This document shows positions 11,629-39,704 of a DNA stretch of 64,000 nt, piece after piece. The stretch is from Bacteroidota bacterium (GTDB lineage: Bacteria > Bacteroidota > Bacteroidia > Flavobacteriales > Flavobacteriaceae). The notes under the pieces were generated by a model. That model was not told where the DNA came from, ran no database searches, and saw only the letters and a program-made list of their open reading frames with translations. The position numbers were made by a program, and so were the translations under genes. The stretch covers positions 81,133-145,132 of the forward strand of contig JAFDZC010000003.1 of assembly GCA_018267095.1 (NCBI GenBank). Direction: 5' to 3'. How positions within the stretch are numbered: position 1 is the first letter of the stretch; every line of letters begins with the position of its first letter.

Positions 11629-11664
11629 ATTTGTTTGATATTTTTATAAATTTGTTAAACAAAA
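11629..11664. promoter_or_regulatory. Candidate TetR operator upstream of tetR
   Basis: ATTTGTTTGA (11629-11638) and TTAAACAAAA (11655-11664) form an imperfect inverted repeat with a 16-base spacer, ending eight bases before the tetR ATG. A TAAATTTG -7-like element (11647-11654) lies in the spacer. The right half also contributes to the short palindrome TTTGTTaAACAAA (11651-11663). The same 36-base layout occurs at 39669-39704 in front of the photoreactivation operon. Confidence 0.65.
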
Positions 11665-11672
11665 TTATTATC

Positions 11673-12335
11673 ATGGCAGCTAAGAAAAAACCAACCGTCA
11701 CCGCTGAACAAATCGTGAGTCTCTACACAGATTTTGTGCTCAAACACGGCAAGAAACCTAGTTCAGTATATAGTTTTATGAGCGAAGCCGGCTTTTCAGA
11801 AGCTGATTTTTATCTGCATTACGCCTCGTTTGAGGCTATCGAGGCGGCTTATTTTTCTGAACTTTTTGCGCATTCATTCAACTTGATTCAGAAATCGGAT
11901 GATTTCGCTCAGTATGATGCAGCGCAAAAGCTCTCTTCGTTTTATTTTACTTTTATAGAAATGGCTACCGCCAACAGAAGCATGGTTTTGTATCTGTTAC
12001 AGTCGAGTAAAAATCCGCTTTCAAATCTGGAAAAACTCAAACCTTTACGCCGAGATTTTTTAAATATGCTCAAGCAGATTCTGCAAGCGCCCATGCAAAC
12101 TCAAAGTGCGCGATTCAATGAAATACAAGCCAAACTGGTTCATGAAGGCGCGTGGATTCAGTTGATGTCCATACTTAAATTCTGGATGGACGACACTTCG
12201 GCAGGCTTTGAAAAGACCGATGTTTTTATTGAAAAATCGGTTCAAGCCGCTTTTGATTTGGTCTACAACAGCCCGATGCAAAGCGTGGTTGATTTGGGAA
12301 AATTTCTCTGGAAAGAAAAAATGACGCAGCACTAA
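11673..12335 (+). CDS. TetR-family transcriptional regulator
   Basis: A 220-residue protein. The N-terminal ~50 residues form a TetR-type helix-turn-helix (VTAEQIVSLYTDFVLKHGKK, then a recognition-helix region around SEADFYLHY). The rest is all-helical, as expected for the ligand-binding dimerisation domain. ATG 11673 (MAAKKKPTVT) follows the operator-like repeat, which suggests autoregulation. The ABC1 kinase gene starts three bases after its stop, and the TIGR03643 gene overlaps that one, making a three-gene operon. The matching site at 39669 suggests it also controls photolyase genes; the ligand or signal is unknown. Confidence 0.8.
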   Translation: MAAKKKPTVTAEQIVSLYTDFVLKHGKKPSSVYSFMSEAGFSEADFYLHYASFEAIEAAYFSELFAHSFNLIQKSDDFAQYDAAQKLSSFYFTFIEMATANRSMVLYLLQSSKNPLSNLEKLKPLRRDFLNMLKQILQAPMQTQSARFNEIQAKLVHEGAWIQLMSILKFWMDDTSAGFEKTDVFIEKSVQAAFDLVYNSPMQSVVDLGKFLWKEKMTQH

Positions 12336-12338
12336 AGC

Positions 12339-13649
12339 ATGAAAAAAATCGATTCTATTCCGACGCGCAAAATTGAACGCGTGGCAAAATTAGTAACCAC
12401 AGGCGTTAAAGTAGGCGGAAATTACCTCAAATACTACGGCGAGAAAGCCATCAATCCGAGCCTGACCAAAGATAAATTGCACGAAGAAAACGCCACCGAT
12501 ATTTACGACGGACTCAAAGAACTCAAAGGCAGTGCGCTCAAAGTAGCCCAAATGCTCAGTATGGAAAAAAACCTTTTGCCACAAAGCTATGTGGAGAAAT
12601 TCTCGCTGTCACAGTTTTCGGTTCCGCCGTTGTCTGCTCCGCTGGTGCGTAAAACTTTTAAAAACAGTTTTAAAAAATATCCCGAAGAGATTTTTGATTC
12701 GTTCACGCCTGATTCGGTCAATGCGGCCAGTATTGGTCAAGTGCACAAAGCCGAGAAAAACGGCCAACAACTCGCGGTAAAAATCCAGTATCCGGGCGTG
12801 CGCGACAGCATCAAAACCGATATCGCGCTGGTCAAACCCATCGCGGTACGTATGTTCAATTTGCAAGGAACTTCAGATGAATATTTTCAAGAAGTTGAAG
12901 ACAAACTCACAGAAGAAACCGATTATCAACTCGAATTGCAACAAAGCGAAGCTGTTCGTATGGCCTGCAGTCAAATTGAAGGTTTGCAGTTTCCGAAATA
13001 TTATCCCGAATATTCGTCCGACAGAATCATCACCATGGATTGGATGCGCGGGCAACATCTTTCAGAGTTCTGTACCACCGAAACCGATGCTCAAAAGCGG
13101 CAGCGCGTAGGGCAGACGCTCTGGAATTTTTATATGTATCAGATTCATGCGCTGCGCAAATTTCACGCTGATCCGCATCCGGGCAATTTTTTGGTGGATA
13201 CCGACGGTCAGTTAATCGCCATTGATTTTGGTTGTATGAAGCAAATTCCGTCTTCGTTTTACAAACCGTATTTTGAAATTTCCAGCCCTGATGTTTTGAA
13301 CGATGCTTTCAAATTCAAGAACAAACTCATCGAACTCGAAATTCTCAAAACCACTGATTCGCCCGCTGAAGAAAAGTTTTTTACCGAGCTTTTTCACGAA
13401 TTACTCACCCTTTTTACCCAACCGATCCAACACGAAGAATTTGATTTTTCAGACGCTTCGTTTCAACAAAAGATTGCCCAATTGAGCGAGAAATTCACTC
13501 AAGACAAAAACCTCAGAAAAATGAATGGCAACCGTGGCTCGAAGCATTTTATCTATGTCAACCGAACTTTTTTTGGCTTGTATAGTTTGATGTTTGACAT
13601 TGGCGCTCGCGTTCGCATCAATGATTTTGAAAAATACCTCAAAGCATGA
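12339..13649 (+). CDS. ABC1/AarF/UbiB-family atypical kinase
   Basis: A 436-residue ABC1-family protein. Family landmarks include LKVAQMLS (variant of the KxGQ motif with Ala in place of Gly), the alanine-rich loop NAASIGQVHKA, the invariant Lys in LAVKIQYPG, the catalytic segment HADPHPGNFL and the metal-binding IDFG. UbiB-like proteins support quinone or isoprenoid lipid metabolism, but the substrate is not established here. It lies in an operon with tetR and the TIGR03643 gene (ATGA overlap). Such operons are often near photolyase genes in flavobacteria, which agrees with the shared operator. No membrane anchor is evident at the C terminus. Confidence 0.88.
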   Translation: MKKIDSIPTRKIERVAKLVTTGVKVGGNYLKYYGEKAINPSLTKDKLHEENATDIYDGLKELKGSALKVAQMLSMEKNLLPQSYVEKFSLSQFSVPPLSAPLVRKTFKNSFKKYPEEIFDSFTPDSVNAASIGQVHKAEKNGQQLAVKIQYPGVRDSIKTDIALVKPIAVRMFNLQGTSDEYFQEVEDKLTEETDYQLELQQSEAVRMACSQIEGLQFPKYYPEYSSDRIITMDWMRGQHLSEFCTTETDAQKRQRVGQTLWNFYMYQIHALRKFHADPHPGNFLVDTDGQLIAIDFGCMKQIPSSFYKPYFEISSPDVLNDAFKFKNKLIELEILKTTDSPAEEKFFTELFHELLTLFTQPIQHEEFDFSDASFQQKIAQLSEKFTQDKNLRKMNGNRGSKHFIYVNRTFFGLYSLMFDIGARVRINDFEKYLKA

Positions 13650-13927
13650 AATCACTCACCGAAGCACAAATAGATCGCATCATCGAAATGGCTTGGGAAG
13701 ACCGAACGCCGTTTGAAGCCATAGAATTTCAGTTTCAATTGTCAGAAGCCGAAGTCATTGAGCTCATGCGCCGCGAGATGAAACCCTCAAGCTTTAGAAT
13801 GTGGCGTGCCCGCGTACAAGGTCGAGCAACCAAGCATTTACAAAAGCGAACTTTTTTAAGCGGAACATTTAAGTGCGATTTACAGCGCAACATCACCGGA
13901 AACAAAATCAGTAAAAGAAGGCGTTAA
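13646..13927 (+). CDS. TIGR03643-family small protein
   Basis: A 93-residue basic protein. The N-terminal half (IDRIIEMAWEDRTPFEAIEF, then LSEAEVIELMRREMKPSSF) resembles a small helix-turn-helix, and RMWRARVQGRATKHLQKR is the conserved basic segment of family TIGR03643. It overlaps the ABC1 kinase gene by four bases (ATGA). Its function is unknown; the helix-turn-helix look and basic tail suggest nucleic-acid binding. The terminal 25 residues are lysine- and arginine-rich and probably disordered. Confidence 0.75.
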   Translation: MKSLTEAQIDRIIEMAWEDRTPFEAIEFQFQLSEAEVIELMRREMKPSSFRMWRARVQGRATKHLQKRTFLSGTFKCDLQRNITGNKISKRRR

Positions 13928-13989
13928 ATTTTCAAAGTTTTTTCACGGTATTATAAAAATGTCTATATTCGTCCAAATCAAATTCATTT

Positions 13990-14052
13990 ATGAATCATAA
14001 CCGTTATTATAACAACCCAATTTATTACTTCCAAAACCGGAAGCTGGGATGA
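13990..14052 (+). CDS. Tyr-rich leader peptide of the aromatic amino acid operon
   Basis: A 20-codon reading frame, MNHNRYYNNPIYYFQNRKLG, lies between the TIGR03643 gene and the aminotransferase. Tyr codons occupy positions 6, 7, 12 and 13 and Phe is position 14. A weak promoter (TATATTCG, 13964-13971) precedes it and an intrinsic terminator follows at 14092. GCTGGGAT at its stop codon (14043-14050) can pair with ATCCCGGC (14094-14101) and so block the terminator. This is the layout of ribosome-mediated attenuation responding to charged tRNA-Tyr/Phe. The genes downstream make Tyr and Phe precursors. Confidence 0.75.
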   Translation: MNHNRYYNNPIYYFQNRKLG

Positions 14053-14091
14053 TATTGGTTATCTGAAATAATTATTAATTCAAAAAGATAC

Positions 14092-14120
14092 AAATCCCGG
14101 CAGTGTTCGGGATTTTTTTA
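14092..14120 (+). terminator. Attenuator terminator before the aromatic operon
   Basis: AAATCCCG (14092-14099) pairs perfectly with CGGGATTT (14108-14115) around an 8-base loop; T residues follow. It ends 14 bases before the aminotransferase ATG and after the leader peptide stop, so it can only act on this operon. Confidence 0.85.
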
Positions 14121-14133
14121 TTTATATGCGCCT

Positions 14134-15291
14134 ATGATTACAACGGCACACCGATTAAACAGCGTTGCAGAATATTATTTCTCGTCTAAATTGCGCGAAG
14201 TCCGGCAGCTCATCGCTCAAGGAAAACCCATTATCAACATGGGTATCGGCAGTCCGGATTTGGCCCCGGACGCTAGCGTGATTCAAGCCATTCAACGGGC
14301 TATGTCCGAACCTTCGGCGCATCAATATCAAAGCTATCAAGGTTTGCCTGAATTACGCATAGCGATGGCGCAATTTTACCAAAAGCATTTTTCAGTCGCG
14401 CTCAATTCCGACTCAGAAATTCTGCCGCTCATGGGCTCCAAAGAAGGCATCATGCATATTTCGATGGCTTTTTTGAATCCGGGCGACCAGGTACTCATTC
14501 CCAATCCGGGTTATCCGACCTATGCATCGGTCACGCAACTTGTGGGCGCCGAACCAATTTTCTATGATTTGTTGCCCGAGCGAAATTGGCAGCCCGATTT
14601 TGAAGCGTTGGAAAAACTCGATTCATCCAAAATCAAACTCATTTGGATTTCCTATCCGCACATGCCCACAGGAACTCCGGCCGATTTGGATTTGCTGGCA
14701 CGCTGGGTTGCTTTGGCAAAAAAGCACAATGCACTATTGGTCAATGATAATCCGTATAGTTTTGTGCTTAATCCAAGACCGACTTCATTGTTGCAAGTAC
14801 AAGGTGCAGAAGGAATTTGTTTGGAACTTAATTCTTTGTCCAAAACGTTCAATATGGCGGGTTGGCGTGTGGGCATGGTTTTAGGAAATGCCGATTTGAT
14901 TCAAGCAGTGCTCCAGGTAAAAAGTAATTTTGACAGTGGTATGTTTTACGGTGTGCAGAAAGGCGCCATTGCAGCATTAAATCTCGATAATACTTGGTTT
15001 GAAGAACAAGATAAAATCTATCAAAAACGCAGAGCTTTGATGCTCAAAATAGTTGAAAAATTAGGATGCAAAACCCGTGCAGATGAAGTAGGCTTGTTCA
15101 TTTGGGCTCAATTGCCCGATGGTGTTTTGGATGCCGAAAAATTTATCGACGAAATATTATACAGCCGACATATCTTTGTGGCACCGGGAACCGTTTTTGG
15201 CAGCAACGGTCAAGGTTATATTCGGTTTTCACTTTGCGTGGACGAAACAAAAATCACCGAGGCATTGTCGCGGTTTAAAGAAGAATTATGA
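14134..15291 (+). CDS. PLP-dependent class I/II aminotransferase (aromatic operon)
   Basis: A 385-residue fold-type I aminotransferase. The PLP Schiff-base lysine is Lys237 in SLSKTFNMAGWR. NPGYPTY and LLVNDNPYSF are other family motifs. The usual NPTG of this fold reads MPTG (SYPHMPTG). Given the leader peptide upstream and tyrA and DAHP synthase downstream, it most likely transaminates an aromatic keto acid or prephenate, although LL-diaminopimelate and aspartate enzymes belong to the same fold. The stop overlaps the tyrA start (ATGA). Confidence 0.85.
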   Translation: MITTAHRLNSVAEYYFSSKLREVRQLIAQGKPIINMGIGSPDLAPDASVIQAIQRAMSEPSAHQYQSYQGLPELRIAMAQFYQKHFSVALNSDSEILPLMGSKEGIMHISMAFLNPGDQVLIPNPGYPTYASVTQLVGAEPIFYDLLPERNWQPDFEALEKLDSSKIKLIWISYPHMPTGTPADLDLLARWVALAKKHNALLVNDNPYSFVLNPRPTSLLQVQGAEGICLELNSLSKTFNMAGWRVGMVLGNADLIQAVLQVKSNFDSGMFYGVQKGAIAALNLDNTWFEEQDKIYQKRRALMLKIVEKLGCKTRADEVGLFIWAQLPDGVLDAEKFIDEILYSRHIFVAPGTVFGSNGQGYIRFSLCVDETKITEALSRFKEEL

Positions 15292-16154
15292 ACGTATTTA
15301 TTATAGGGACTGGACTCATTGGCGGCTCAATGGCACGCGATATTCGAACGCATTATCCGCAGGCCAAAATCTTCGGAATTGATGCCCAAGCCCATCATTT
15401 AGAACAAGCCAAACAACAGAGAATTATTGATGAATCAGCAAATTTTTCTGATTTGGCTATGGCCGATCTCGTCATTGTTTCGGTTCCGGTGGATGCTTGT
15501 CTGGCTTTGTTGCCCGAAGTATTGAACGCGGTATCTGAGCAAGCTTTGGTGCTGGATGTCGGCTCTACCAAATGCCCCATTTGTCAAGCGATCGAGAATC
15601 ATCCTAAACGCGCGCAGTTTTTGGCTGCTCACCCAATTGCCGGAACAGAATTCTCAGGTCCGATGGCTGCCATTTCGGGTTTATTTGTAGGCAAAACCAA
15701 CATCATTTGTGAAGTCGAAAAGACTTCGTTTAAATTGCAAGAAAAAGCACTCGAGATTTTTCAAAAACTCGGTATGCGCATTCGTTATATGAGTCCCAAA
15801 TCGCACGACAAACACATCGCTTATGTGTCGCATTTGTCACACATCAGCTCATTTATGTTGGGCAAAACCGTGATTGAAAAAGAAAAACACGAACGCGATA
15901 TTTTTGATATGGCCGGCAGCGGATTTGAAAGCACCGTTCGACTCGCCAAAAGTTCACCGGCGATGTGGACGCCCATTTTCAAACAAAACAAAAAGCAGGT
16001 GATGCGCGCTTTAGACGAATATATTGCCAATTTATCGCATTTCAGAAACCTGATGGAAAACGAAGATTACGAACTCGTTTTTCAAGAAATGCAACAAGTC
16101 AATCGCATCAAAGAAATTTTAAACGGAATCAACAACCCCAAAACAGCTTCATAA
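15288..16154 (+). CDS. tyrA: Prephenate dehydrogenase
   Basis: A 288-residue NAD-dependent enzyme that decarboxylates prephenate to 4-hydroxyphenylpyruvate for tyrosine synthesis. The N-terminal Rossmann motif is IIGTGLIGGSMARDI. The catalytic region has AAHPIAGTEFSGP and HDKHIAYVSHLSHISSFML, with the conserved histidines. It is the short form, with no fused chorismate mutase; that activity lies in the next gene, which begins one base after its stop. Overlap with the aminotransferase gene and tight spacing define a single operon under the Tyr leader. Confidence 0.92.
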   Translation: MNVFIIGTGLIGGSMARDIRTHYPQAKIFGIDAQAHHLEQAKQQRIIDESANFSDLAMADLVIVSVPVDACLALLPEVLNAVSEQALVLDVGSTKCPICQAIENHPKRAQFLAAHPIAGTEFSGPMAAISGLFVGKTNIICEVEKTSFKLQEKALEIFQKLGMRIRYMSPKSHDKHIAYVSHLSHISSFMLGKTVIEKEKHERDIFDMAGSGFESTVRLAKSSPAMWTPIFKQNKKQVMRALDEYIANLSHFRNLMENEDYELVFQEMQQVNRIKEILNGINNPKTAS

Positions 16155-16155
16155 A

Positions 16156-17241
16156 ATGGAAAACACAAAAGATATGCGCCAATGGCTTGATGATTTTGGG
16201 CTGAGTCATCCGCTGGTGATTGCCGGGCCTTGCAGTGCTGAAACCGAAACCCAAGTTTTGCAAATTGCGCACGAACTCAAAGATTCGGACGTGCGTATTT
16301 TTCGCGCCGGCATCTGGAAACCGCGCACGCGACCGGGCGGATTTGAAGGCGTTGGTGCCATAGGGCTCAAATGGTTGCAACGAGCCAAGGCCGAAACCGG
16401 TTTGCTCATGGCTGTCGAAGTGGCCAATGCAGCGCACGTCAAACTCGCATTAGAACACGATATCGATGTACTTTGGATTGGGGCGCGCACCACGGTAAAT
16501 CCGTTTGCGGTGCAAGAAATCGCCGATGCTTTGCAAGGAACCGATAAAATAGTCTTGGTCAAAAATCCGGTTAATCCTGATTTGTCTTTGTGGATGGGCG
16601 GTGTAGAGCGATTACACGCCGCCGGCATCAAAAAGTTAGGAGTCATTCACCGCGGGTTTTCAACTTATGAAAAAACCAAATACCGAAATATTCCCGAATG
16701 GCAAATTCCGATTGAATTGCAAAGTCGTTTTCCGGATTTACCGCTCATTTGCGATCCGTCGCACATTACCGGAAAGCGCGATATGATTCAAGAAGTTTCG
16801 CAGCAAGCGCTTGATTTGAATTACGACGGGCTCATGATTGAAACGCATATAGATCCGGACCATGCCTGGAGTGATGCCGCACAACAAGTCACCCCGACCG
16901 TTCTGAAACAGATTTTTAAAGATTTGCGCATCCGAAATTTATCGACCGAAGAAAGCGATTTCAATGTTCAAATGGCCCAGTTGCGCACCGAGATTGATTC
17001 AGCCGATAGTAAATTGCTCGAGATTTTGGGCAAACGCATGCAAGTAGCCGAGCGGATTGGCGCACTCAAAAAAGAAAAAAACATCGCTGTTTTGCAAAAC
17101 AAACGCTGGAACGAAATCTTGCATAAAATGACTCAAGAAGGGCAAAGCAAAGGTTTGAGCGAAGATTTTATCTTACGACTTTTCAAGGCGATTCACCAGG
17201 AAAGTATTAGCCATCAGGAGCGGGTGATGAATCAGCGATGA
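16156..17241 (+). CDS. Bifunctional DAHP synthase / chorismate mutase
   Basis: A 361-residue fusion. Residues 1-260 are a DAHP synthase of the KDO8P-synthase-like type (AGPCSAE, KPRTRPGGFEG, GARTTVNPF, CDPSHITGKRD). It condenses PEP and erythrose-4-phosphate as the first shikimate step. Residues 270-355 are an AroQ-type chorismate mutase (MAQLRTEIDSADSKLLEILG, then KRMQVAERIGALK). The mutase half makes prephenate for the tyrA product upstream, and such fusions allow feedback control of the synthase. The operon ends here, with a terminator at 17263. No prephenate dehydratase gene accompanies the cluster. Confidence 0.93.
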   Translation: MENTKDMRQWLDDFGLSHPLVIAGPCSAETETQVLQIAHELKDSDVRIFRAGIWKPRTRPGGFEGVGAIGLKWLQRAKAETGLLMAVEVANAAHVKLALEHDIDVLWIGARTTVNPFAVQEIADALQGTDKIVLVKNPVNPDLSLWMGGVERLHAAGIKKLGVIHRGFSTYEKTKYRNIPEWQIPIELQSRFPDLPLICDPSHITGKRDMIQEVSQQALDLNYDGLMIETHIDPDHAWSDAAQQVTPTVLKQIFKDLRIRNLSTEESDFNVQMAQLRTEIDSADSKLLEILGKRMQVAERIGALKKEKNIAVLQNKRWNEILHKMTQEGQSKGLSEDFILRLFKAIHQESISHQERVMNQR

Positions 17242-17262
17242 AAATCAAATTAAATAATGCAT

Positions 17263-17288
17263 ACCTCCTTTCTTGGGAGGTTTTTTTG
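17263..17288 (+). terminator. Terminator of the aromatic operon
   Basis: ACCTCC (17263-17268) pairs with GGAGGT (17276-17281) over a 7-base loop, followed by a T-run. It lies 21 bases after the bifunctional enzyme gene. Confidence 0.85.
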
Positions 17289-17327
17289 TTATATTGCCGC
17301 CTGTTCAACCTATTTAATTTTTTACAA

Positions 17328-18986
17328 ATGAGAAAAGCTTTTTATGGTTTTTTCTTTTTTGTACTGGCTTTTACTACATTAAATGCTCAGAACAAAATTG
17401 ATAAAATCAACCTGACCTATGGCGAAGAACTTCCGGATGATCGCCAAAAAATAGTAAAAATCATCGGAGAAAATGCCAACAAAATCTACGCTTTGGGTTT
17501 GGCTGACAAAGAGGATTATTTCATCAAGATTTTTGATTCTAAAACCATGAAGCTTTTGTCTTCAAAACCGATTATTATTCCGAGTATGAATAATAAAGAA
17601 GTTGATTTTGAAGATATTTTTATGCTCAACGGAAACCTATACGCCATTGGAAGTGTCTACAACAAAAGCGACAAAACCTTCAATTTAATTGGGGCGAATA
17701 TTTCTGAAAATGGTGTTTTAAGCAACAATACGGTTTCGTTGTTTAATTCGGTGGTGGCCAAAAAATCAGATCGTGGCCAATTTTATTTTAAACAATACAA
17801 TAACAAAGGTGATACTTTGCTCATAATGCACACAGCGCTTTTTGACAAAGAGGATGCAGTAAAATATGAAGTTAAATTATTTGACCAGCAGCTCAAAACT
17901 ATTTTCTTCACCGAAGATAAAGTCCAATTTGACGATCATAAAAAAGACTTTGAATTTATGATTGCCGATTTTGATTTGAATTTTCAGAATGATGTTTTTT
18001 TGGTCATCAACGAAAGCTATCGCGACAGCAAACTGCGACAGCAAATTGAAAAGTTCCAAGTGCACGCTTTTAAAGCAGCCAACGGTTACAAGAAAGAAAT
18101 AATTGACATCAATATCAAAGGCAAAGAAATCATCAACTGCGAATTGATGGCCAACACCAAAAATGTATTGAAATTGGTTGGTTTTTACTCAAGTGTTCGC
18201 GACAACGGTAAAGCAAACAAAGAACTCAAAGGCGTTTATAATGCTACCATTAACCTGAATACCAATACCAATGACAACCTCAAGTTCAACGAATTTGACT
18301 ACGAAACCAAAGTCAAATTGTTGGGCGAGCGCAAAGCCAAAAAAGGAAAAGACCTAAAGCCATTGTACAACATCACAACCCTGATTGAAAAAGAAGATGG
18401 TGGTTTGATTGTTCTGTCTGAGTTTCAGTTTTATTACGTTGGTCGTTCGTCAGGGATTGGACCGATTGCATTTACACCGGTTACCTATAACAAAAATGAA
18501 ATCATTGTCACTTGCCTCAAAGCAGACGGATCACTAGATTGGAGCAACGTAGTGGCTAAAGAACAAGATGCTACGGTAACTACGGTTTCTTTTGTTTTTG
18601 GATTTGGTGCTAGAGACGGAAATTTCACAGTAGGGGGTGCCATCGCCATTCCGTTGGGACAAATGGGTAAAGGTCCGGAATATTTAGGCGCGATTCCTAT
18701 TTATCACAACGAGCAACTGAATATTTTATTCAACGATCATGTGAAAAATAAAGGCATTACCAGTATGGATGAAATCAGGTCTCTAGGAAATTACAACAAT
18801 GCAGTTCCAACCTTATTTATTTTTGATAAACAAGGAAATATCACGCGTAAGGATCCGGAAGAAGTTGTCAAAAATGAACTGGTTATTCGCCCGGGCGTTT
18901 ATTTCAGAAAAAGTGATAACGAATACATAGTTTACTCATCTCGAAAAAGTAAAGACAAACTTGGGCGGATGATTCTCGAAGAATAA
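17328..18986 (+). CDS. Secreted protein of unknown function
   Basis: A 552-residue protein. ATG 17328 begins MRKAFYGFFFFVLAFTTLNAQ, a signal peptide; a longer in-frame reading would start inside the aromatic operon and run through its terminator. The mature part has no motif I recognise. It contains repeated beta-strand-like patterns with Asp/Asn/Lys-rich turns (for example IYALGLADKEDYFIKIFD and LIVLSEFQFYY), suggesting a beta-propeller-type exported protein. A second Phe/Gly-rich segment (FVFGFGARDGNFTVGG) lies near residue 430. It has its own flanking terminators and no apparent link to its neighbours. Base composition looks more AT-rich than the adjoining enzyme genes. Confidence 0.75.
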   Translation: MRKAFYGFFFFVLAFTTLNAQNKIDKINLTYGEELPDDRQKIVKIIGENANKIYALGLADKEDYFIKIFDSKTMKLLSSKPIIIPSMNNKEVDFEDIFMLNGNLYAIGSVYNKSDKTFNLIGANISENGVLSNNTVSLFNSVVAKKSDRGQFYFKQYNNKGDTLLIMHTALFDKEDAVKYEVKLFDQQLKTIFFTEDKVQFDDHKKDFEFMIADFDLNFQNDVFLVINESYRDSKLRQQIEKFQVHAFKAANGYKKEIIDINIKGKEIINCELMANTKNVLKLVGFYSSVRDNGKANKELKGVYNATINLNTNTNDNLKFNEFDYETKVKLLGERKAKKGKDLKPLYNITTLIEKEDGGLIVLSEFQFYYVGRSSGIGPIAFTPVTYNKNEIIVTCLKADGSLDWSNVVAKEQDATVTTVSFVFGFGARDGNFTVGGAIAIPLGQMGKGPEYLGAIPIYHNEQLNILFNDHVKNKGITSMDEIRSLGNYNNAVPTLFIFDKQGNITRKDPEEVVKNELVIRPGVYFRKSDNEYIVYSSRKSKDKLGRMILEE

Positions 18987-18993
18987 ATCAACT

Positions 18994-19024
18994 AAGGCTG
19001 TATTTTAGAATGCAGCCTTTTTTA
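18994..19024 (+). terminator. Terminator after the unknown secreted protein
   Basis: AAGGCTG (18994-19000) pairs with CAGCCTT (19013-19019) around a 12-base loop, followed by a T-run. Confidence 0.85.
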
Positions 19025-19035
19025 TTTAAGACAAC

Positions 19036-19069: not shown

Positions 19070-19088
19070 CTACAGCTAAAAGGCATTC

Positions 19089-29248: not shown

Positions 29249-29346
29249 GGGCGTGCCACCGGCTGCGCTGCGCTGCGCCGCTGTCAGGCTGTTCGCTTGT
29301 AGTCCTCGCTATCGCTGCGGGCTACCGCTGCCATCCTTCACGCGGG
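29249..29346. repeat. GC-rich intergenic repeat, copy 3
   Basis: A 98-base element beginning GGGCGTGCCACCGG and ending CCATCCTTCACGCGGG. It is nearly identical, in opposite orientation, to the copy at 39711-39820. The shared order of blocks is GCTGCGCTGCGCCGCTGTC, AGGCTGTTCGCTT, TAGTCCTCGC, CTGCGGGCTA and CGCTGCCATCCTTCACGCGG. It lies between the converging queA and SIMPL-domain genes. Confidence 0.85.
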
Positions 29347-31481: not shown

Positions 31482-33290
31482 TTAGGCCATTTGCGGTTGA
31501 CTGATTTCGAGCGAACTTAATTCGTTTTGCGCATGTTCAAGTTGTTCCAAAATTTGGTTTTGCATCGACTTGAAATACTTTGTTTGGTCGAGCAAATTCT
31601 GATAAAAGGCTATGCCCGAATATAGGTTGTTTCTAAAGGCTTCCCATTTTTTGAATTGCGCAGCGGTAGCTTTTTCAAAATTTTCGGCAATTTCATTTTT
31701 CAGATAGCGCACATACAAACGCAATTCATTGACAAAAAACACCGGACGCTCCGGATGATGCATGACTTGTGTATTTCCATAGATGTGACGAACCATATCC
31801 AATAATGAGATTTCTCGGTCAAAATAAGCCAAATTCGGTCCCGGACAAATCACCACGCCTTGTTGCTGACCCTTTACCGGAAGGCCATTTTCTAAATAAG
31901 ACGTATTAGCCAGCCCGACACATAAACAAGCTTTTTCGGTGATTTTATTTTTTTGTAGATGATAAGCTTCTGAAGACAATTCTTCTTTTTGTGCCTCGAG
32001 TTCTTCGAGTTTGTAATCTTGATATTTTTTGGAGGCCGTGCAAATACCCTTTTCGTCGTATTCTTTGCTCAAGGCCAAAAGTTTTTTCGGGCACGAACTT
32101 CCGGCTTGATTTTGTTCGATGCGTTTTTGCTTGTAAAATTCATTGGTGGTTCCTCTAACGGTATTAAACGGAACGCCCAAAGGTGAAATATTGCTTAAAT
32201 AAAAATCCTTTTCGCGCGCTTGGGCCAAGAGTTTTCGCGTATCAGCATCGACCGAAGTGGCCTCGGGAACGAGTAAAAACGGCGAACCCCAGCCAATCGA
32301 ATCCAGTTGGTAGTAATCCAATAAAAACTGATGTTCTTCGGCTGTGCCTACGCCGCCTTGCGCGGTGATGTTCAGGGGTAAAGTCTGCGTCGGAACCGGT
32401 TTGTTTTTTTGTTCCAGTGCTTTGACCAAAAGGCCATGTGCTGATTCAATGAGTTCGTTCTTTTTCTGTTTGAATTCTTCCAGAATCGGCCCCATCAAAT
32501 AACCGTCGGTGGCAAAAGCGTGCCCGCCGCAATTCAATCCGGATTCAATGCGGTATTCAGAAACCCATAAGCCTTTTTTGGCCAGAAAATTTCCCTGAAT
32601 CATGGCCGATCGAAAATCGCTGACCTTGAGGATGATTTTCTTTTTGAGCTGTGCATTTTCATCTGGATAGAAATCGGCAAAATCTTCTAAATAACTGTAC
32701 AAGCGCGGATTCATTCCGGCCGAAAGCACCAAGGATGAAGTCAATTTGCTCAGCGCAAATCCGCGTAAAGCCGCATGTGCGTCGTTGTATTGCGTGGGTA
32801 AAGCTGTGTTTTTGTAAAAGTTCTCCTTGTCAACTTTGGTCATGATGTTCACGTCAATCGAGCCCGGATGCAAATGGGTTTCGATGTATTTTTTCAAACG
32901 CTCGGTTTGCAGTGCGCCTTCATCTATGAGTTGTTTTAAATGCGCTTTGATTTCAGATTGATTCGGAAGCATCGCCAAATAATTTTCGAGCGCAATTTTG
33001 CTTTCGGACAATTCAATTTTGAACGATTCAAATTTTTCTTTGACCAATTCGTCCATCAAATTCAGATAATGTGTGATGCGTTGCGCGCGGAAATCTTCCA
33101 TTTTCTGAGTGATTTCAGCATACGGTTTTTTGAATTTTGAACTGTAAAAAGCCCGCATTTTTTCGATGAGTTCATCGTCAGTAATAGCCACCACCGATGA
33201 AATGCCGAAATGCGCCAAACGAATCGGTGTGTCAATGGTAAAAGCAAGTCCCATCACGGGAATGTGAAAAGTATGAAGTGGTTGCGTCAT
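31482..33290 (-). CDS. Large FMN-barrel-like protein with Cys-rich C-terminal segment (nitronate monooxygenase-like)
   Basis: A 602-residue protein without a signal peptide; ATG 33290 (MTQPLHTFHIPVMG) was preferred to a TTG 12 bases upstream. The opening resembles the first strand and phosphate loop of nitronate-monooxygenase-type TIM barrels, and CGGHAFATDGYLMGPILEE, QGGVGTAEEH and GWGSPFLLVPEAT resemble their flavin-binding loops. After NISPLGVPFNTVRG comes a Cys-rich stretch (SSCPKKL, KGICTASKKY, KACLCVGLAN, VICPGPNLAYF) laid out like the Cys-containing tail of some clostridial nitronate-monooxygenase homologues. A roughly 110-residue helical insert (about 40-150) is unusual. The fold call is by motif reading only; no function is assigned. 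It converges on kynU with two bases between stops. Confidence 0.55.
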   Translation of the reverse strand: MTQPLHTFHIPVMGLAFTIDTPIRLAHFGISSVVAITDDELIEKMRAFYSSKFKKPYAEITQKMEDFRAQRITHYLNLMDELVKEKFESFKIELSESKIALENYLAMLPNQSEIKAHLKQLIDEGALQTERLKKYIETHLHPGSIDVNIMTKVDKENFYKNTALPTQYNDAHAALRGFALSKLTSSLVLSAGMNPRLYSYLEDFADFYPDENAQLKKKIILKVSDFRSAMIQGNFLAKKGLWVSEYRIESGLNCGGHAFATDGYLMGPILEEFKQKKNELIESAHGLLVKALEQKNKPVPTQTLPLNITAQGGVGTAEEHQFLLDYYQLDSIGWGSPFLLVPEATSVDADTRKLLAQAREKDFYLSNISPLGVPFNTVRGTTNEFYKQKRIEQNQAGSSCPKKLLALSKEYDEKGICTASKKYQDYKLEELEAQKEELSSEAYHLQKNKITEKACLCVGLANTSYLENGLPVKGQQQGVVICPGPNLAYFDREISLLDMVRHIYGNTQVMHHPERPVFFVNELRLYVRYLKNEIAENFEKATAAQFKKWEAFRNNLYSGIAFYQNLLDQTKYFKSMQNQILEQLEHAQNELSSLEISQPQMA

Positions 33291-33382
33291 GTGCCGTTGC
33301 AATTTAAGAATCCGTAAAAGTCTGTATTTGTTAGCATTTAAAACCTGACAATTGTCATGTGGCAGAAATTCTTGGTTTTCTT

Positions 33383-33411
33383 TTGCAATCGAATCAATGC
33401 GACTATCTTTG
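33383..33411 (+). promoter_or_regulatory. Promoter of the arginase-family gene
   Basis: TTG (33383-33385), an 18-base spacer and TATCTTTG (33404-33411) match the TTG-N17-23-TAnnTTTG consensus. The start codon is at 33444. Confidence 0.75.
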
Positions 33412-33443
33412 CGCGACCAAATAAATTTTCAGTTCATCAGATT

Positions 33444-34526
33444 ATGACCAAACAAGAAATCATCGCCAGCTTTGATCCGTCACAACCCGGATTGGCTGAC
33501 CAAACTATATTCGGATTGCCTTTTTCGGCTCAAGACAGTGAAATTATTGTGGTGCCCGTTCCGTGGGAAGTAACGGTGAGCTATGGCGCCGGTGCCTCAG
33601 AAGGACCAGAAGCTATTTTTGAAGCTTCGTTTCAAGTGGACTTACATCATCAAGATTTTCCGGAGCTCTGGAAGCTTGGCATCTATTACGATGACAGCGA
33701 ACTTATATCGTCATGGGCACAAAAAAGCGTTCAGTATAAAGCCATGGCGCAACCGATTATTGAAGCTTTAGAAAGTGGTGAATCGGTAGAAGATCATCCT
33801 AAATTAAAAGCCGATTTACAAACCATCAACCAAGCTTGTCAAGATTTGCACGATCAAGTGCGCGAGCGCGTTTTGTATTGGATGCAACAAGGCAAAAAAG
33901 TAGTTTTGCTCGGCGGTGATCACTCAACGCCACTCGGATATTACCAAGCGATGGCGACCCAGCATGACAACTTTGGGATTTTGCACCTCGATGCCCATAT
34001 GGATTTGCGCATCGCTTATGAAGGTTTTACTTATTCGCATGCGTCGATTATGTATAATGCGCTGCAGATTCCGCAAATCAGCAAAATTGTTCAGATTGGT
34101 ATTCGCGATTTTTGTGCGCAAGAAGTTGAAGTGGTTCAATCGCAAGGCGGACGCGTTCAGGTACACACCGATGCCGACATGAAAGCCAAAACTTTTAAAG
34201 GAATGACATGGGATGCGCAGTGTGACGAAATCATTGCCGCGCTTCCGCAAAAAGTAGCCGTTAGTTTTGATATTGATGGCATGTATTCATGGTATGCACC
34301 ACATACAGGCACGCCGGTTCCGGGCGGTTTCTCTTTTGAACAAGCGACTTATTTGTTCAATAAATTAGCGCAAAGCGGAAAAGAAATCATCGGAATGGAT
34401 TTGGTCGAAGTGGCTCCCGGTGAAGACGATTGGGACGGAAACGTCGGTGCGCGCATGTTGTATCATATGTGTGGCGTTTGGGCACAAAACAACGGACTTG
34501 AAGTCGGAAAGAGAATTAGCTTTTAA
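33444..34526 (+). CDS. Arginase/agmatinase/formimidoylglutamase-family hydrolase
   Basis: A 360-residue ureohydrolase-fold enzyme. The binuclear manganese ligands are visible in GGDHSTPLGY, LDAHMDLR and SFDIDGMYSWYAP. ATG 33444 (MTKQEIIASFDPSQPG) follows the promoter; a longer in-frame reading would run through it. The insertion of about 70 residues before GGDHS and the Trp/Tyr-rich DGMYSWYAP loop distinguish it from classical arginase. Substrate could be agmatine, formiminoglutamate or another guanidino compound; the sequence does not decide. It has its own promoter and terminator. Confidence 0.85.
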   Translation: MTKQEIIASFDPSQPGLADQTIFGLPFSAQDSEIIVVPVPWEVTVSYGAGASEGPEAIFEASFQVDLHHQDFPELWKLGIYYDDSELISSWAQKSVQYKAMAQPIIEALESGESVEDHPKLKADLQTINQACQDLHDQVRERVLYWMQQGKKVVLLGGDHSTPLGYYQAMATQHDNFGILHLDAHMDLRIAYEGFTYSHASIMYNALQIPQISKIVQIGIRDFCAQEVEVVQSQGGRVQVHTDADMKAKTFKGMTWDAQCDEIIAALPQKVAVSFDIDGMYSWYAPHTGTPVPGGFSFEQATYLFNKLAQSGKEIIGMDLVEVAPGEDDWDGNVGARMLYHMCGVWAQNNGLEVGKRISF

Positions 34527-34547
34527 AAAGAAAAATGCTTTATAATG

Positions 34548-34580
34548 AAACCCGCTCTTTTGAGTGGGTTTTTTGTTTTT
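34548..34580 (+). terminator. Terminator after the arginase-family gene
   Basis: AAACCCGCTC (34548-34557) pairs with GAGTGGGTTT (34562-34571), ten base pairs with one G-U, over a TTTT loop, then a T-rich run. Confidence 0.9.
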
Positions 34581-34625
34581 AATTTGGGGTGGTTCTGTAA
34601 AATTAAGAGTGTTTTTTAGTGAATG

Positions 34626-34696
34626 CCCTAAAATTTATATGGTTGAATTTTAAAATTCGTAAAAGTTATTGCTTTGAAAGGCTTAAATTTTTAGGG
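34626..34696. promoter_or_regulatory. Long-range inverted repeat upstream of amt
   Basis: CCCTAAAATTTA (34626-34637) is mirrored by TAAATTTTTAGGG (34684-34696) with one extra base; the 46 bases between contain the palindrome GAATTTTAAAATTC (34645-34658). It sits about 45-115 bases before the amt ATG and could be a regulator-binding pair or RNA stem. No TAnnTTTG element is obvious. Confidence 0.4.
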
Positions 34697-34739
34697 TAAA
34701 ATTCATTTTTTTATTTTTATCCTAATTAAAACGCTAGTT

Positions 34740-36053
34740 ATGAGAAAAATTGTACTGAGTTTTGTCTTGATTTTGCTTTTACTGCTCACGTTGTTTTCCC
34801 ATTTATTATTAGATGAAAATTCCATCCAAACCAGCTTGACACAATTCGATACCGGTGATACCGCTTGGATGCTCGTAGCTACAGCCTTGGTTTTACTGAT
34901 GACACCGGGTTTGGGCTTTTTTTACGGCGGCATGGTCGGCAAGAAAAATGTCATCAGCACCATGATGCAGAGTTTTATGGCCATGGTTATCGTTACCGTG
35001 CTTTGGGTGGTTGTGGCGTTTGGTTTATCGTTTGGCCAGAGCATTGGCGGATTTATTGGCAATCCGACCGATTATATCTTCTTTCAAAAAGTTAGTGTTT
35101 TAAGCGCTTGGCCGCTTGCTCCGACCATTCCTTTTTTGCTCTTTGCCTTGTTTCAAGCCAAGTTTGCCATCATCACGCCGGCACTCGTTACTGGTGCTTT
35201 TGCCGAACGCATTCGTTTTTGGGCGTATCTGCTCTTTATGGTTTTATTCATATTGGTCGTTTATACGCCGCTCGCACATTGCACTTGGCATCCGGATGGC
35301 TTGTTGTTTAAGCTCGGCGTTTTAGATTTTGCAGGTGGAACCGTCGTACATATGAGTGCGGGTTGGGCGGCTTTGGCAGGCGCTATTTTTCTCGGAAAGC
35401 GAAAAACACAAACCTCTAGCCCGGCGCGAATTACCTATGTTTTGCTCGGAACCGGATTGCTGTGGTTTGGTTGGTTCGGATTCAATGCAGGTTCGGCGAT
35501 GGGCGCCAACACAATTGCGGTTCAAGCACTGGGAACTACCACAGTAGCGGCAGCCGCAGCGGCGATGGCTTGGGTATTTCTCGATAAAATTTGGGGACAC
35601 AAACCTTCGGCCATGGGCGCTTGTATAGGTTCGGTGGTGGGATTGGTGGCGATTACTCCGGCAGCCGGTTATGTGAGCATGCCGCATGCCATTTTTATCG
35701 GAATCTTCAGTAGTTGGGTGAGCAATGTGATGGTGTCTAAATTTCCGAAAGGCAAAATTGACGATGCGCTCGATGTGTTTAGTTGCCACGGAGTGGGCGG
35801 TATGGTGGGCATGTTGCTTACAGGCGTTTTTGCTTCCAAACAAGTCAATCCGGCGGTCACTGATCAAGGGTTGATTTTCGGCGAAACCACGTTGTTTTTC
35901 CATCAACTTATTGCGTTGGTTTTGGTATCGATATTCGCCTTTGGAATGTCCTATACCGTGTTTTTTGCGGTAAACAAATTGACCCCGTTGCGCGTGAGCG
36001 AAGAAAAAGAAGAACTCGGCTTAGACATCACCCAACACGGCGAGAATCTTTAA
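34740..36053 (+). CDS. amt: Ammonium transporter (Amt family)
   Basis: A 437-residue inner-membrane ammonium channel. It opens with an N-terminal hydrophobic segment (FVLILLLLLTLFSHLLL) and then the family region WMLVATALVLLMTPGLGFFY with GGMVGKKN. The twin pore histidines lie in GGTVVHMSAGWAAL and FSCHGVGGMVGMLLTGVFA. About eleven transmembrane helices can be counted after the N-terminal segment. No GlnB/GlnK gene adjoins it, although amt and glnK are often paired. The stop overlaps the convergent photolyase gene by a few bases. Confidence 0.95.
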   Translation: MRKIVLSFVLILLLLLTLFSHLLLDENSIQTSLTQFDTGDTAWMLVATALVLLMTPGLGFFYGGMVGKKNVISTMMQSFMAMVIVTVLWVVVAFGLSFGQSIGGFIGNPTDYIFFQKVSVLSAWPLAPTIPFLLFALFQAKFAIITPALVTGAFAERIRFWAYLLFMVLFILVVYTPLAHCTWHPDGLLFKLGVLDFAGGTVVHMSAGWAALAGAIFLGKRKTQTSSPARITYVLLGTGLLWFGWFGFNAGSAMGANTIAVQALGTTTVAAAAAAMAWVFLDKIWGHKPSAMGACIGSVVGLVAITPAAGYVSMPHAIFIGIFSSWVSNVMVSKFPKGKIDDALDVFSCHGVGGMVGMLLTGVFASKQVNPAVTDQGLIFGETTLFFHQLIALVLVSIFAFGMSYTVFFAVNKLTPLRVSEEKEELGLDITQHGENL

Positions 36054-37582
36054 AAAGCATCCGGATTTTGAATGATTTTTTGCGCTCTTTCGCGCATTTG
36101 TGCTCGTTGTTCTGCGGGCATTTTCTCCAGTTGATGATACATCATCGACATTCTTGGGTTGTCTTGTAAATAGGTTCGGTTGACTTCGAGAAAATTCCAA
36201 TACAAACTATTGAATGGGCAGGCTTTTTCGGAGGTTTTTTCTTTGACATGATAACGGCAATTATCGCAGTAATTACTCATTTTTTGGATATAACTTCCTG
36301 AAGAAATATAAGGCTTGGTCGCAATGATTCCACCGTCTGCATATTGACTCATGCCCCGCGTGTTGGGCATTTCGACCCATTCAATCGCATCGATGTACAC
36401 GCCCAAATACCAAGCGTCCACCGCATCGGGATGCAAATGCGTGAGCAACGAAAAATTCCCGATGACCATCAGTCGCTGAATGTGGTGCGCATAAGCATCG
36501 TCGAGACTTTGACCGATGGCGTTTTTGAGACAATTCATTTGCGTTTGTCCGGTCCAGAAAAACGCAGGCAATTTGTTTTCGTGATTGAAATAATTGAGGT
36601 TTTGATATTCGGGCATTTTCGCCCAATAAATTCCGCGTACATATTCACGCCAACCCAGAATCTGCCGAACAAAACCCTCAATCTGAGGCAAAGAAATTTT
36701 ATGGCTGTTTTGTTCAAAAGTCTCAATCGCTTTTTGAATTACTTCGGCCGGCGACAGCATTTTGGTATTCATGGCAAACGACAAACGCGCGTGAAAGAGA
36801 TATTTTTCTCGGCTGTGCATGGCATCTTCATAATCGCCAAAGTGTTCCAGTAAATATTGGCAGAAATAAGTCAATTGTTCCAGACATTGTTGTCGATTGA
36901 TGGGCCACGAAAGCGCTTCTGGATTGATGTTGCCAAAGAAATCTATTTTCTCTGACAGAATTTCCCGGTAGATTTCCGAAACATCATTGTTAAAAATCAT
37001 CGCCGGCGGAACCGGATGTTCACCTTTGTATTTCTTGCGGTTTTCGTGGTCAAAATTCCAAGCGCCGCCCAGAGGTGCATCGCCTTGCATGAGTATTTGG
37101 TGTTTCTTGCGCATGAGTCGGTAGAAACTTTCCATGAGCCACTGTTTTTTGCCTGAAAAATAATCGCGCAATTCAACTCTCGCGGTAAAAAAATGCTCGG
37201 TTGAAAAGCATTCAGAAGCAATAGATAAGTTTGCACAAAAGTGATTCAATTGCTCATCGAGTCGATATTCATCGGGTTGTTGATATTCAAATTTCTCGAT
37301 TGATAATTCACCGATGAAGTGATTTAAAATCTGATCGAGTGGTTTTCGTGCCATCGGATGCTGAATCTTGAGATAAATAACTTGGTGTTTTTGTTTCATC
37401 AAGCCATTGGCAAATGCGCGCATCGCCGCAAAAAAGGCTGAGATTTTTTGTATATGGTGTTTTACATAATTGGTTTCCTGATGCATTTCAACCATCAAAT
37501 AAACGATGCTTTCAGAGGTTTTTTGATACCACGAATGTTGCGCATTGAGCTGATCGCCCAAAATAAGTCGAAGTGTTTTCAT
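36050..37582 (-). CDS. Iron-sulfur bacterial cryptochrome/(6-4) photolyase (FeS-BCP, PhrB-like)
   Basis: A 510-residue photolyase-superfamily protein. It begins MKTLRLILGDQLN, the typical start of the FeS-BCP group (an upstream TTG was rejected). Cys351, Cys439, Cys442 and Cys455 are spaced like the four [4Fe-4S] ligands of Agrobacterium PhrB. FAD-pocket motifs include QILGWREYVRGIYW and DAYAHHIQRLMVIGNF. WNFDHENRKKY is a family signature. The group repairs (6-4) photoproducts or acts as a blue-light sensor. It is the last gene of a four-gene operon, five bases after CryDASH. Confidence 0.93.
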   Translation of the reverse strand: MKTLRLILGDQLNAQHSWYQKTSESIVYLMVEMHQETNYVKHHIQKISAFFAAMRAFANGLMKQKHQVIYLKIQHPMARKPLDQILNHFIGELSIEKFEYQQPDEYRLDEQLNHFCANLSIASECFSTEHFFTARVELRDYFSGKKQWLMESFYRLMRKKHQILMQGDAPLGGAWNFDHENRKKYKGEHPVPPAMIFNNDVSEIYREILSEKIDFFGNINPEALSWPINRQQCLEQLTYFCQYLLEHFGDYEDAMHSREKYLFHARLSFAMNTKMLSPAEVIQKAIETFEQNSHKISLPQIEGFVRQILGWREYVRGIYWAKMPEYQNLNYFNHENKLPAFFWTGQTQMNCLKNAIGQSLDDAYAHHIQRLMVIGNFSLLTHLHPDAVDAWYLGVYIDAIEWVEMPNTRGMSQYADGGIIATKPYISSGSYIQKMSNYCDNCRYHVKEKTSEKACPFNSLYWNFLEVNRTYLQDNPRMSMMYHQLEKMPAEQRAQMRERAQKIIQNPDAF

Positions 37583-37587
37583 AATGC

Positions 37588-38862
37588 TTAAAGCCAAAGT
37601 TTTTGAAAGGCTTGTTGCGGGTCGTACATGTCAGCCTGACGTTTGATGTTGAACATTCTATCGCGCGGATCGTTGCCCACACCGGCGTTGTAGATCCAGT
37701 TTCCGTAGTTGCTGTGCACGTCATAATCGATGAGCATACTCTCAAAATATGCCGCGGCTATGTGCCAATCTTCTTGCCATTGTTTGGCCCAAAAACTCGC
37801 TACATTTTGTCGTCCGCGGTTGCTCATAAAACCGGTTTCGCGCAACTCAATCATGTTGGCATTGACAAAAGGTTCGGGTGTTTTTCCTTCAGTCCACAGT
37901 TTGAATTTGTGTTTGTTTTGATTCCAATGGTAAGGACGATTAAGGATTCCGCCCAAATGGAAAATCTTGTTCTGATGTTTGAGCGAAATATATTTGAAGT
38001 AATCGCGCCAAATCAATTCAAAAATGAGCCAATAGGTATCTTCGTTTTTGACGATGGTTCGTTCAAATTTTCTCACGGCTTCATAAATGGTGCGTGCTGA
38101 AATGCTTCCGTTGGCCAGCCAGAGCGATAGTTTAGAACTGTAATCAGCGCCGATAAGTCCGTTGCGGGTTTGCTTGTAACGCGCTAAATTTTGCGTAATA
38201 AAAAAATAGTCTTCCAATCGGTTGAGCGCTTGCAATTCACCGCCTTTGAACGGAACGGCTGAATTGGGATGCGTTTCAAAATCTTCAAAACCTAAGTCAG
38301 TCAGTGACGGAATTTTATTTTGCGGCTCACTGTAATTTTCAGACGGCATTTGCGGAGCAGCAATAGGTTGTCTCACGCGCGCTAGTTGTTCGGTTTTTTT
38401 TCGGAATTCGGTGAAGACTTCGGGAATTTGTGCCCAATTTTGATAGGGAATATCTTCAGGATGAAACAAAAACTGATCGTAGTTTTCAACCCATTGTACC
38501 TTGGTTTTTTGTTTGATTTGTCGCAGAATGGTTTGTTCTTCTGAAGTCCATTCGGTCATTTTATACACACGGTCAATTTGATGTTGAGAAACCAAATTCG
38601 GTAAAGCCACCTCGGGTTTTTCAAAAATTACTTCTAGCGGAATGTTGATTTTTTCGAGCGATAACCGAAGTTCTGTAAGGGTTTCCAATAAAAATTTAGC
38701 ACGGAATTTTTCGGTTCTTTTAAAACCGTAGTTCGTCGTTTCAAATTGGCGCGGATCTATGCAGTAGACAGCCTGAACCTGCTCGTTTTCTTGACAGGCC
38801 AAACTCAGTGAGACATTGTCGCGGATGCGTAAATCTTGGGTGAACCAAACCAGTGCTTTCAT
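37588..38862 (-). CDS. DASH-family cryptochrome
   Basis: A 424-residue cryptochrome/photolyase. The N-terminal Rossmann-like domain opens [16 protein letters not shown]. The FAD domain shows [35 protein letters not shown] and [21 protein letters not shown], then [20 protein letters not shown]; these are CryDASH signatures. CryDASH proteins repair CPDs mainly in single-stranded DNA and some sense light. The start ATG overlaps the DUF2256 stop (ATGA). The chromophore-binding position cannot be judged by eye. Confidence 0.94.
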
Positions 38863-39005
38863 TGAGTGTTGTTTTTATTTTGACGGCAGCGCTCACTGCA
38901 ATAAACCACAGCATTCCAGTTGCGTTCCCATTTTTTTCGCCAAGCAAACGGACGCTCACAAACCGGACAAATTTTGGTGGGTAAATGCTGTTTTTGGTGC
39001 GTCAT
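38859..39005 (-). CDS. DUF2256 small zinc-ribbon-like protein
   Basis: A 48-residue protein: an [11 protein letters not shown] leader, then [10 protein letters not shown] and the pair YCSERC, giving CPxC plus CxxxC, a likely zinc-binding set of four cysteines, with [12 protein letters not shown] between them. This is the DUF2256 pattern. It is embedded between the flavin reductase and CryDASH genes with four-base overlaps on both sides (ATGA), so it must be translated with them. The family is known for sitting next to cryptochrome/photolyase genes; its function is unknown. Confidence 0.88.
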
Positions 39006-39640
39006 TTTAAAATTGATTCGGTGGGTTTGTGCGGTCGGGCGTATGCGAAGCGGTCGATGATTTGAGGCAACGCATATCCGTCGAGACCATTAATGGCCGC
39101 TACTTTGGCTTGATCTAACCGAATCCAGCCATCTTCGTGCAAAAGCGGTTCAGCAATAAAAATGTGTTCAATGGATGCCACGATCATAATCGTATTGTTT
39201 TCGGCGATGGGATATTCATTAAGGTATTTACAATATAGCTGTACCGGACTTTGGGTTACAAACGGAATAGGTAAATTGTTTTTGAATTCTGGAACCAAAT
39301 CGGTTTGATCAAATTCTGAAATTTCTTCCGGATAAGCGGCAGAACTGTGGTGGGCGCTTTGGATTTGTTCAGCGGTGATGTGGTTGATTGTAAAATAACC
39401 AACTTCACGGATGTTCTGATACGTATTTCTGGGCACAACCGTTGGGCGCACTATAAAACCGATGAGCGCCGGATCGCTGCCCAAATGCGTGATGCTGCTG
39501 AAAATGGCCACATTGGGAATGCCGCTTTTGGATTGCGAAACAATCAGGTTGGCCGATTTGTATCCGGTGGCTGAATTGATCAAATTGAGCCTGAAAATGC
39601 GGTCCATTTGTTGGATTTCGGCTTGAGAAAATGACTTCAT
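39002..39640 (-). CDS. Flavin reductase-family protein
   Basis: A 212-residue FMN-binding split-barrel protein. ATG 39640 ([16 protein letters not shown]) is preferred to a TTG 21 bases upstream. The region [18 protein letters not shown], then [21 protein letters not shown] and [15 protein letters not shown], matches flavin reductase/DIM6-NTAB-like domains. As first gene of the photoreactivation operon it may supply reduced flavin to the FAD enzymes encoded behind it; that link is inference. An operator-like inverted repeat precedes it. Confidence 0.85.
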
Positions 39641-39668
39641 AAAGGAAAGTTTGCGCAACAAAAATACA

Positions 39669-39704
39669 TTTTGTTTAATAAAATAAATAAAAAGTTAAAC
39701 AAAA
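39669..39704. promoter_or_regulatory. Candidate TetR operator of the photoreactivation operon
   Basis: TTTTGTTTAA (39669-39678) and TTAAACAAAA (39695-39704) are a perfect 10-bp inverted repeat with a 16-base spacer, 28 bases before the flavin reductase ATG. A TATTTTTG -7-like element lies on the minus strand at 39666-39659. The site at 11629-11664 before tetR has the same half-sites, two bases different, and the same spacing. Confidence 0.68.

Follow-up and report, generated by a model that had tools for sequence, protein, structure and literature searches.

In a 64,000-nucleotide stretch of a Flavobacteriaceae genome (the window), two 36-bp inverted-repeat sites, one before a tetR operon and the other before a photolyase operon, are probably operators of a protein encoded elsewhere in the same genome, a MerR-type, B12-domain dark repressor related to CarH and LitR that would be released by light and control photoprotection and photorepair. 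The assignment of both operons to one light-related regulon is well supported, and comparison of genomes establishes, at the level of sequence, the sites, their preferred spacing, the genes beside them, their co-occurrence with the MerR gene and a match between its recognition helix and the operator. A sequence-only reading of the window had already noticed the pair of sites and had assigned both to the TetR protein encoded next to the first; the shared operator and the fit to a single light-related regulon are retained here, while the regulator is reassigned.

The operators, their copies and their neighbours

Both sites were found as first described. Copy 1 (ATTTGTTTGA-N16-TTAAACAAAA; 11629..11664, plus strand) is one mismatch off a perfect 9-bp inverted repeat in its 34-bp core and ends 8 bases before the tetR ATG at 11673, and copy 2 (TTTTGTTTAA-N16-TTAAACAAAA; 39669..39704, minus strand), a perfect 10-bp inverted repeat, lies 28 bases from the flavin reductase ATG (39640, minus strand). 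Pfam and NCBIfam matches bear out the names given to the genes behind them, the iron-sulphur label of the last photolyase gene being putative. Copy 1 precedes, on the plus strand, a TetR_C_23 protein (TetR23; PF17931; 11673..12335), which on our best reading is a target rather than a regulator, an ABC1 (UbiB-like) kinase family protein (PF03109; 12339..13649) and a DUF2805/TIGR03643 protein (PF10985, TIGR03643; 13646..13927). Copy 2 precedes, on the minus strand, a flavin reductase-like protein (PF01613, Flavin_Reduct; 39002..39640), a DUF2256 protein (PF10013; 38859..39005), a DASH-family cryptochrome/photolyase (TIGR02765 above cut-off; 37588..38862) and a photolyase-related (DPRP) protein (PF04244; 36050..37597). 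The earlier remark that no third copy exists holds for the window, where the pattern has no other match and 100 shuffles gave none, but not for the genome.

Searching the whole genome for the 34-bp core TTTGTTTRA-N16-TTAAACAAA, graded by mismatches and with the reversed pattern as a control, we found five low-mismatch places in four regions beyond the window: an exact core at C2:100260 before an SRPBCC-SDR-photolyase-photolyase operon, an exact core at C16:426759 accompanied by a 2-mismatch copy at C16:426801 before a fasciclin gene, a 1-mismatch site at C18:2071 before a DUF4397 gene, and a 2-mismatch site at C14:105982 at merR-crtI-crtB-crtZ. Three of the four other 2-mismatch matches fall inside open reading frames, and the fourth (C16:238819) lies directly before a DUF2089 gene (region L010:1216-1938), behind which a gene looks TIGR03643-like by eye. 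Allowing up to 3 mismatches brought the search down to noise (35/33 versus 46/45 for the reversed control).

Conservation was followed in 120 genomes of the family, one per genus, with counts by genus that are not corrected for kinship. The exact motif TTTGTTTRA-N16-TYAAACAAA occurs in 54 of the 120 genera (87 sites) and the reversed pattern in one. Of 83 exact sites in genomes other than the window's own, 71 were retrieved and the remaining 12 left out. At 43 of these 71 the closest gene encodes a homologue of a protein in a set of 18 references drawn from site regions of the own genome: fasciclin at 19, CrtI at 8, SRPBCC at 6, TetR23 at 4, MerR at 2, and SDR, flavin reductase, CryDASH and TIGR03643 at one each. 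The photolyase-operon site is present in 13 of 16 same-genus loci with a flavin reductase at least 58% identical (own locus included; L400, one of the three without it, is cut at its 5' end) and in none of 8 loci with a flavin reductase 35-42% identical; a spacing of 12 gave 5 matches in the same scan. As had been suggested, gene types of the regulon are adjacent in some relatives, in the order TetR23-ABC1-flavin reductase-unknown-SDR at L096, as a single run of TIGR03643, TetR23 and ABC1 at L064, and as a flavin reductase, two photolyase-like genes, TIGR03643, SRPBCC and SDR at L081.

The spacing between half-sites is preferred in every set of loci scanned. When half-sites with up to 2 mismatches were sought at any spacing from 8 to 26 over whole loci, spacing-16 pairs appeared in 21 of 30 MerR loci, 25 of 30 TetR23 loci and 11 of 24 rhodopsin loci, against 0.0 to 0.4 loci per set in shuffles, the next best spacing in any set reaching 5 pairs. 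Outside the family, 41 of 54 MerR loci have spacing 16 (63 pairs), and spacing 17 occurs less often (19 pairs). A search around 75 exact sites turned up 17 second copies (up to 4 mismatches) at a distance of 20-80 bp, 9 of them at 40-44 bp, compared with 1 at control offsets; the second operators at 40-44 bp, about four helical turns, belong mostly to fasciclin and rhodopsin genes (L020:6760 with 6802, L054, L060, L061, L076, L077, L084).

Some individual sites and surroundings may be recorded here. Sites precede htpG-like genes at L109, L091, L089 and L108, the last lying between htpG and tetR, and at L095:5001, L100:5001 and L102:5001 an exact site follows closely on the 3' end of ABC1 in a gap between convergent genes, with no target start found there. 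In the window, a flavin hydroxylase gene (39898-41244) begins about 190 bp from the photolyase operator, on the side away from the photolyase operon; it is kynurenine-monooxygenase-like by eye and has VioC as best NCBIfam match, far below cut-off. A G+C-rich repeat starting GCGTGAAGGATGGCAGC adjoins the same operator (39714-39730, plus strand), recurs at 29327-29343 (minus strand) and has five copies in the genome.

The MerR protein and its recognition helix

The genome holds one such MerR, encoded outside the window on contig C14 (L022:8018-8917) as the first gene of merR-crtI-crtB-crtZ. The best solved-structure match of its profile is CarH, over two stretches, and both a MerR DNA-binding domain (PF13411 and PF00376) and a four-helix B12-binding_2 domain (PF02607) score above cut-off. 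In nine MerRs compared, the W and E of the Wx9EH motif are present in all and the H after E in eight, while E, H and G of E-x-H-x-x-G are invariant in all nine, in a region that aligns to CarH without a Pfam match to the Rossmann B12-binding domain. In the alignment the position following the motif Trp has Gln in eight of the nine and His in Thermus CarH. One corrinoid adenosyltransferase is encoded in the same genome.

Like CarH (Thermus, Bacillus, Myxococcus) and class I LitR, this protein joins a MerR DNA-binding domain to a B12-binding part with the Wx9EH and E/D-x-H-x-x-G residues, has carotenoid genes adjacent, and is associated with sites at promoters and starts. Unlike the tandem 11-bp direct repeats nAnnTnnACAn given for CarH in PMC8156234, the operator here is an inverted repeat, TTTGTTTAA-N16-TTAAACAAA, and its sites are also found at photolyase, fasciclin, TetR23-ABC1 and proteorhodopsin genes. 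The class II LitR proteins of Pseudomonas (PplR1-3, PmlR2) are likewise MerR-type light regulators, with a dispersed regulon of photolyase, cryptochrome-like protein and FolE that resembles the photolyases, DASH cryptochrome and, in G066, FolE found here; they differ in their operator (T(G/A)TACA / TGTACA-N12-TGTACA), in working with a LOV partner and in having no more of the B12 region than its four-helix part (PMC9758184). Among the open-access papers listed, judged by title and start of abstract, we found none joining CarH or LitR to flavobacterial photolyases or proteorhodopsin.

CarH is described as holding its operators in the dark as adenosylcobalamin tetramers that light disassembles (PMC8156234), and by analogy the same light mechanism would carry over to the present MerR branch. 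It is rather unlikely, in our view, that MerR binds these sites but responds to something other than light caught by its own cobalamin, be it a redox signal or a partner photoreceptor as for class II LitR and LOV. Action through a LOV partner does have that precedent (PMC9758184), and the Gln after the motif Trp and the missing Rossmann-domain match would fit such a departure, but the invariant W, E and E-x-H-x-x-G residues, the best match to CarH and the light-related targets speak against it.

Operator bases change with the MerR recognition helix. The strong form of MerR reads HTIRIWEKRY and the weak form HTLRKWE(S/T)RY, with HTLRIWERRY in G025. We surveyed 103 MerR loci with a readable helix, taking the best site anywhere in each locus and leaving out 5 of 108 loci without a helix, as well as L232 and L255, whose genomes were already present. 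A hydrophobic residue (I, V, M or A; 96 loci) goes with two TTTGTT half-sites (TT) in 80 loci, a mixed pair (CT) in 5, two TTTGTC half-sites (CC) in none and no site in 11, whereas of the 7 loci with Lys in the helix 5 have CC and 2 lack a site, the 16-bp spacing being kept. Counting only loci with a site, Lys thus pairs with TTTGTC in 5 of 5 and Ile, Val, Met or Ala with TTTGTT in 80 of 85, none of the latter being all-TTTGTC.

Genome-wide, the C-type motif occurs in 3 of the 120 genomes (8 sites), all of Lys type, and G066 holds six of the eight sites: one before fasciclin, two in the fasciclin-merR gap, one before CIA30-SDR, one before a Porph_ging protein and one before a pterin-synthase-like gene followed by FolE. 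Except for the pterin-synthase-like gene and FolE, these neighbours are of kinds seen at T-type sites too.

MerR or TetR

Across the 120 genomes the strong form of MerR was found in 87, the weak form in 9 and TetR in 76, and the site occurs in 52 of the 87 genomes with a strong MerR compared with 2 of the 33 without. Broken down by genotype, 39 of 68 genomes that combine strong MerR with TetR have the motif, as do 13 of 19 that have strong MerR alone, 2 of 8 that have TetR alone and none of 25 that lack both, so that among strong-MerR genomes the presence of TetR is without effect (P 0.44). The tetR genes of further strong-MerR genomes carry a TTTGTT-type site in 8 of 8 cases (up to 3 mismatches), two of them more than 200 bp from the called start. 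In six genomes the MerR is of Lys type, unread or not found; four of them have no tetR site, namely G014 and G040 (Lys-type), G007 (helix not read) and G059 (no MerR found), while the Lys-type genomes G038 and G066 have a TTTGTC-type site (3 mismatches) and a mixed site, respectively. The tetR gene of G025 has an exact T-type site.

The proposal that the window TetR binds both sites, controlling itself and the photolyase operon, therefore appears very improbable. A site does stand at tetR's own promoter, and most TetR23 loci have the spacing-16 pair, but an operator found with and only with TetR failed as an expectation in both directions, given the 13 of 19 TetR-less MerR genomes that have the motif and the 4 of 6 tetR genes above that have no site. 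Since the operator base changes with the MerR helix, including at tetR sites, the operator follows MerR and not TetR. The recognition-helix region of TetR is itself variable among orthologues, as judged by eye. The window protein resembles TetR family regulators in its TetR_C_23 domain and differs from them in having no Pfam match to the TetR N-terminal/DNA-binding domain and in that its presence does not track the operator; against solved structures it gives weak matches to TetR regulators that include the N-terminal part (best E 0.028). From these sequence comparisons, TetR looks like a target and not the switch.

COQ9 is a TetR-fold, lipid-binding partner in quinone synthesis, and a TetR-fold protein beside an ABC1 (UbiB/COQ8-like) kinase (window 11673-13649) recalls the COQ9-COQ8 pair, as an idea only; the sequence search of solved structures with the window TetR returned no COQ9, only the weak TetR regulators.

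Rhodopsin genes and a possible wider light switch

No rhodopsin gene was found in the window's genome. In the family survey 24 genomes have one, 19 of them with a strong MerR; in 11 of these 19 the rhodopsin start is preceded at 7-24 bp by a site with up to 3 mismatches, as it is in 0 of 4 MerR-negative rhodopsin genomes, and the rhodopsin locus of G079, an incomplete genome, also contains one. A second set comprised the best 80 of 587 rhodopsin matches in named genomes, of which 77 loci could be scanned and 3 had no upstream DNA. In the 150 bp before the gene, 60 of the 77 have an operator when up to 2 mismatches are allowed, against 0.35 expected from shuffles, and 47 when at most 1 is allowed, against 0.00; other spacings give at most 9 with up to 2 mismatches. 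The loci are related, and the 60 are therefore not 60 independent events; they include Winogradskyella, Lacinutrix, Olleya, Pricia, many Flavobacterium and one Dokdonia metagenome-assembled genome. Rhodopsin-bearing Flavobacteriia are described as having more photolyase genes (PMC5932025).

Regulation of rhodopsin genes in flavobacteria has been called open, with a second RpoD suggested for those of Dokdonia (PMC3587595). That the motif is the promoter element of such an alternative sigma factor would agree with that suggestion and with sites near gene starts, and is nonetheless decidedly unlikely: the element forms a full inverted repeat, varies with the MerR helix and has no fixed place, the site ending at or overlapping the ATG at seven crtI genes, lying just upstream of TATCTTTG at all four oriented TetR23 sites, covering the merR start codon in many loci (with about 3 mismatches in the own genome too) and standing 12 to 103 bp before rhodopsin genes in the set from named genomes. 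Variable placement of this kind would better suit a repressor than a promoter element. Chance occurrence in AT-rich DNA can be rejected from the empty window shuffles, the single reversed-control genome and the near-zero spacing and rhodopsin shuffles.

Several observations weigh against a CarH-like light repressor as the common regulator. Of the strong-MerR genomes, 35 of 87 have no exact site, although the merR region, viewed in 11 of these 35, contains weaker sites (1 to 4 mismatches) in all 11, and the motif occurs exceptionally in G025 (weak-form MerR) and G079 (MerR not found, 81% complete). At 24 of the 71 fetched sites the nearest gene is of another kind, including four HSP90-like proteins (one Pfam-checked), two rhodopsins, CIA30, Porph_ging and a fatty-acid-desaturase-family protein, and at 4 there is none; convergent genes flank 4 of the 71 sites, and 2 fall within an open reading frame. 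Many matches at unrelated AT-rich promoters, the outcome that the sequence-only reading had named as damaging, were not found, the reversed control being confined to one genome, though these 24 nearest genes do differ. The NCBIfam CarH score is 57.8 against a cut-off of 400 bits, CarH still being the best family matched, and the operator is not CarH's tandem repeat but an inverted one with a 16-bp spacer. The four Polaribacter rhodopsin loci were without an operator, and Dokdonia PRO95 is described as expressing its rhodopsin constitutively (PMC3587595). As to the helix, the reversed control of the C-type pattern also matches 3 of 120 genomes (one site each), so that the C-type genome count alone is weak; G025 has an Ile helix and is closer to the Lys type in other respects; and, as Lys-type proteins probably form one clade, helix and operator may have changed in a single event.

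Relatives of the MerR were found in 68 of 148 genomes at the level of the order and in 87 of 149 at that of the class, with loci seen for 30 matches in each survey. In many outside families the operator lies between merR and a gene of about 170 aa, followed by crtI or a photolyase gene; two such genes that were scanned (L241:2553-3053, L265:2512-3057) are ECF-type sigma factors, and outside its own family the regulator may thus act through a sigma factor.

A light-released MerR repressor would work as follows. In the dark, cobalamin-loaded MerR would bind two inverted TTTGTTTAA half-sites with centres 25 bp apart and, by covering a target's promoter or start region, keep it from being transcribed. 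On illumination the cobalt-carbon bond of cobalamin would break and MerR would be released, switching on carotenoid synthesis, photolyases, DASH cryptochrome, SRPBCC-SDR, fasciclin and DUF4397 proteins, together with the TetR23-ABC1-TIGR03643 operon, the operon of the regulator itself and, among relatives with that gene, proteorhodopsin. Binding, repression and the response to cobalamin and light are thereby predicted for this branch.

If so, a branch of CarH-like regulators gains a matched operator and helix, and several uncharacterised genes (TIGR03643, DUF2256, TetR_C_23-ABC1, fasciclin, DUF4397) are tied to a probable light regulon. The operator before so large a share of rhodopsin genes (60 of 77) points to one regulator type and one light-sensing cofactor, and suggests a link between B12 supply and phototrophy. 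We lean towards the broader view that a CarH-like B12 photoreceptor is the master light switch in much of the class Bacteroidia, acting through one conserved inverted-repeat operator, re-coded in one group together with its helix, over carotenoid, photorepair and, in many flavobacteria, proteorhodopsin genes, in which case B12 supply would gate light-driven energy capture.

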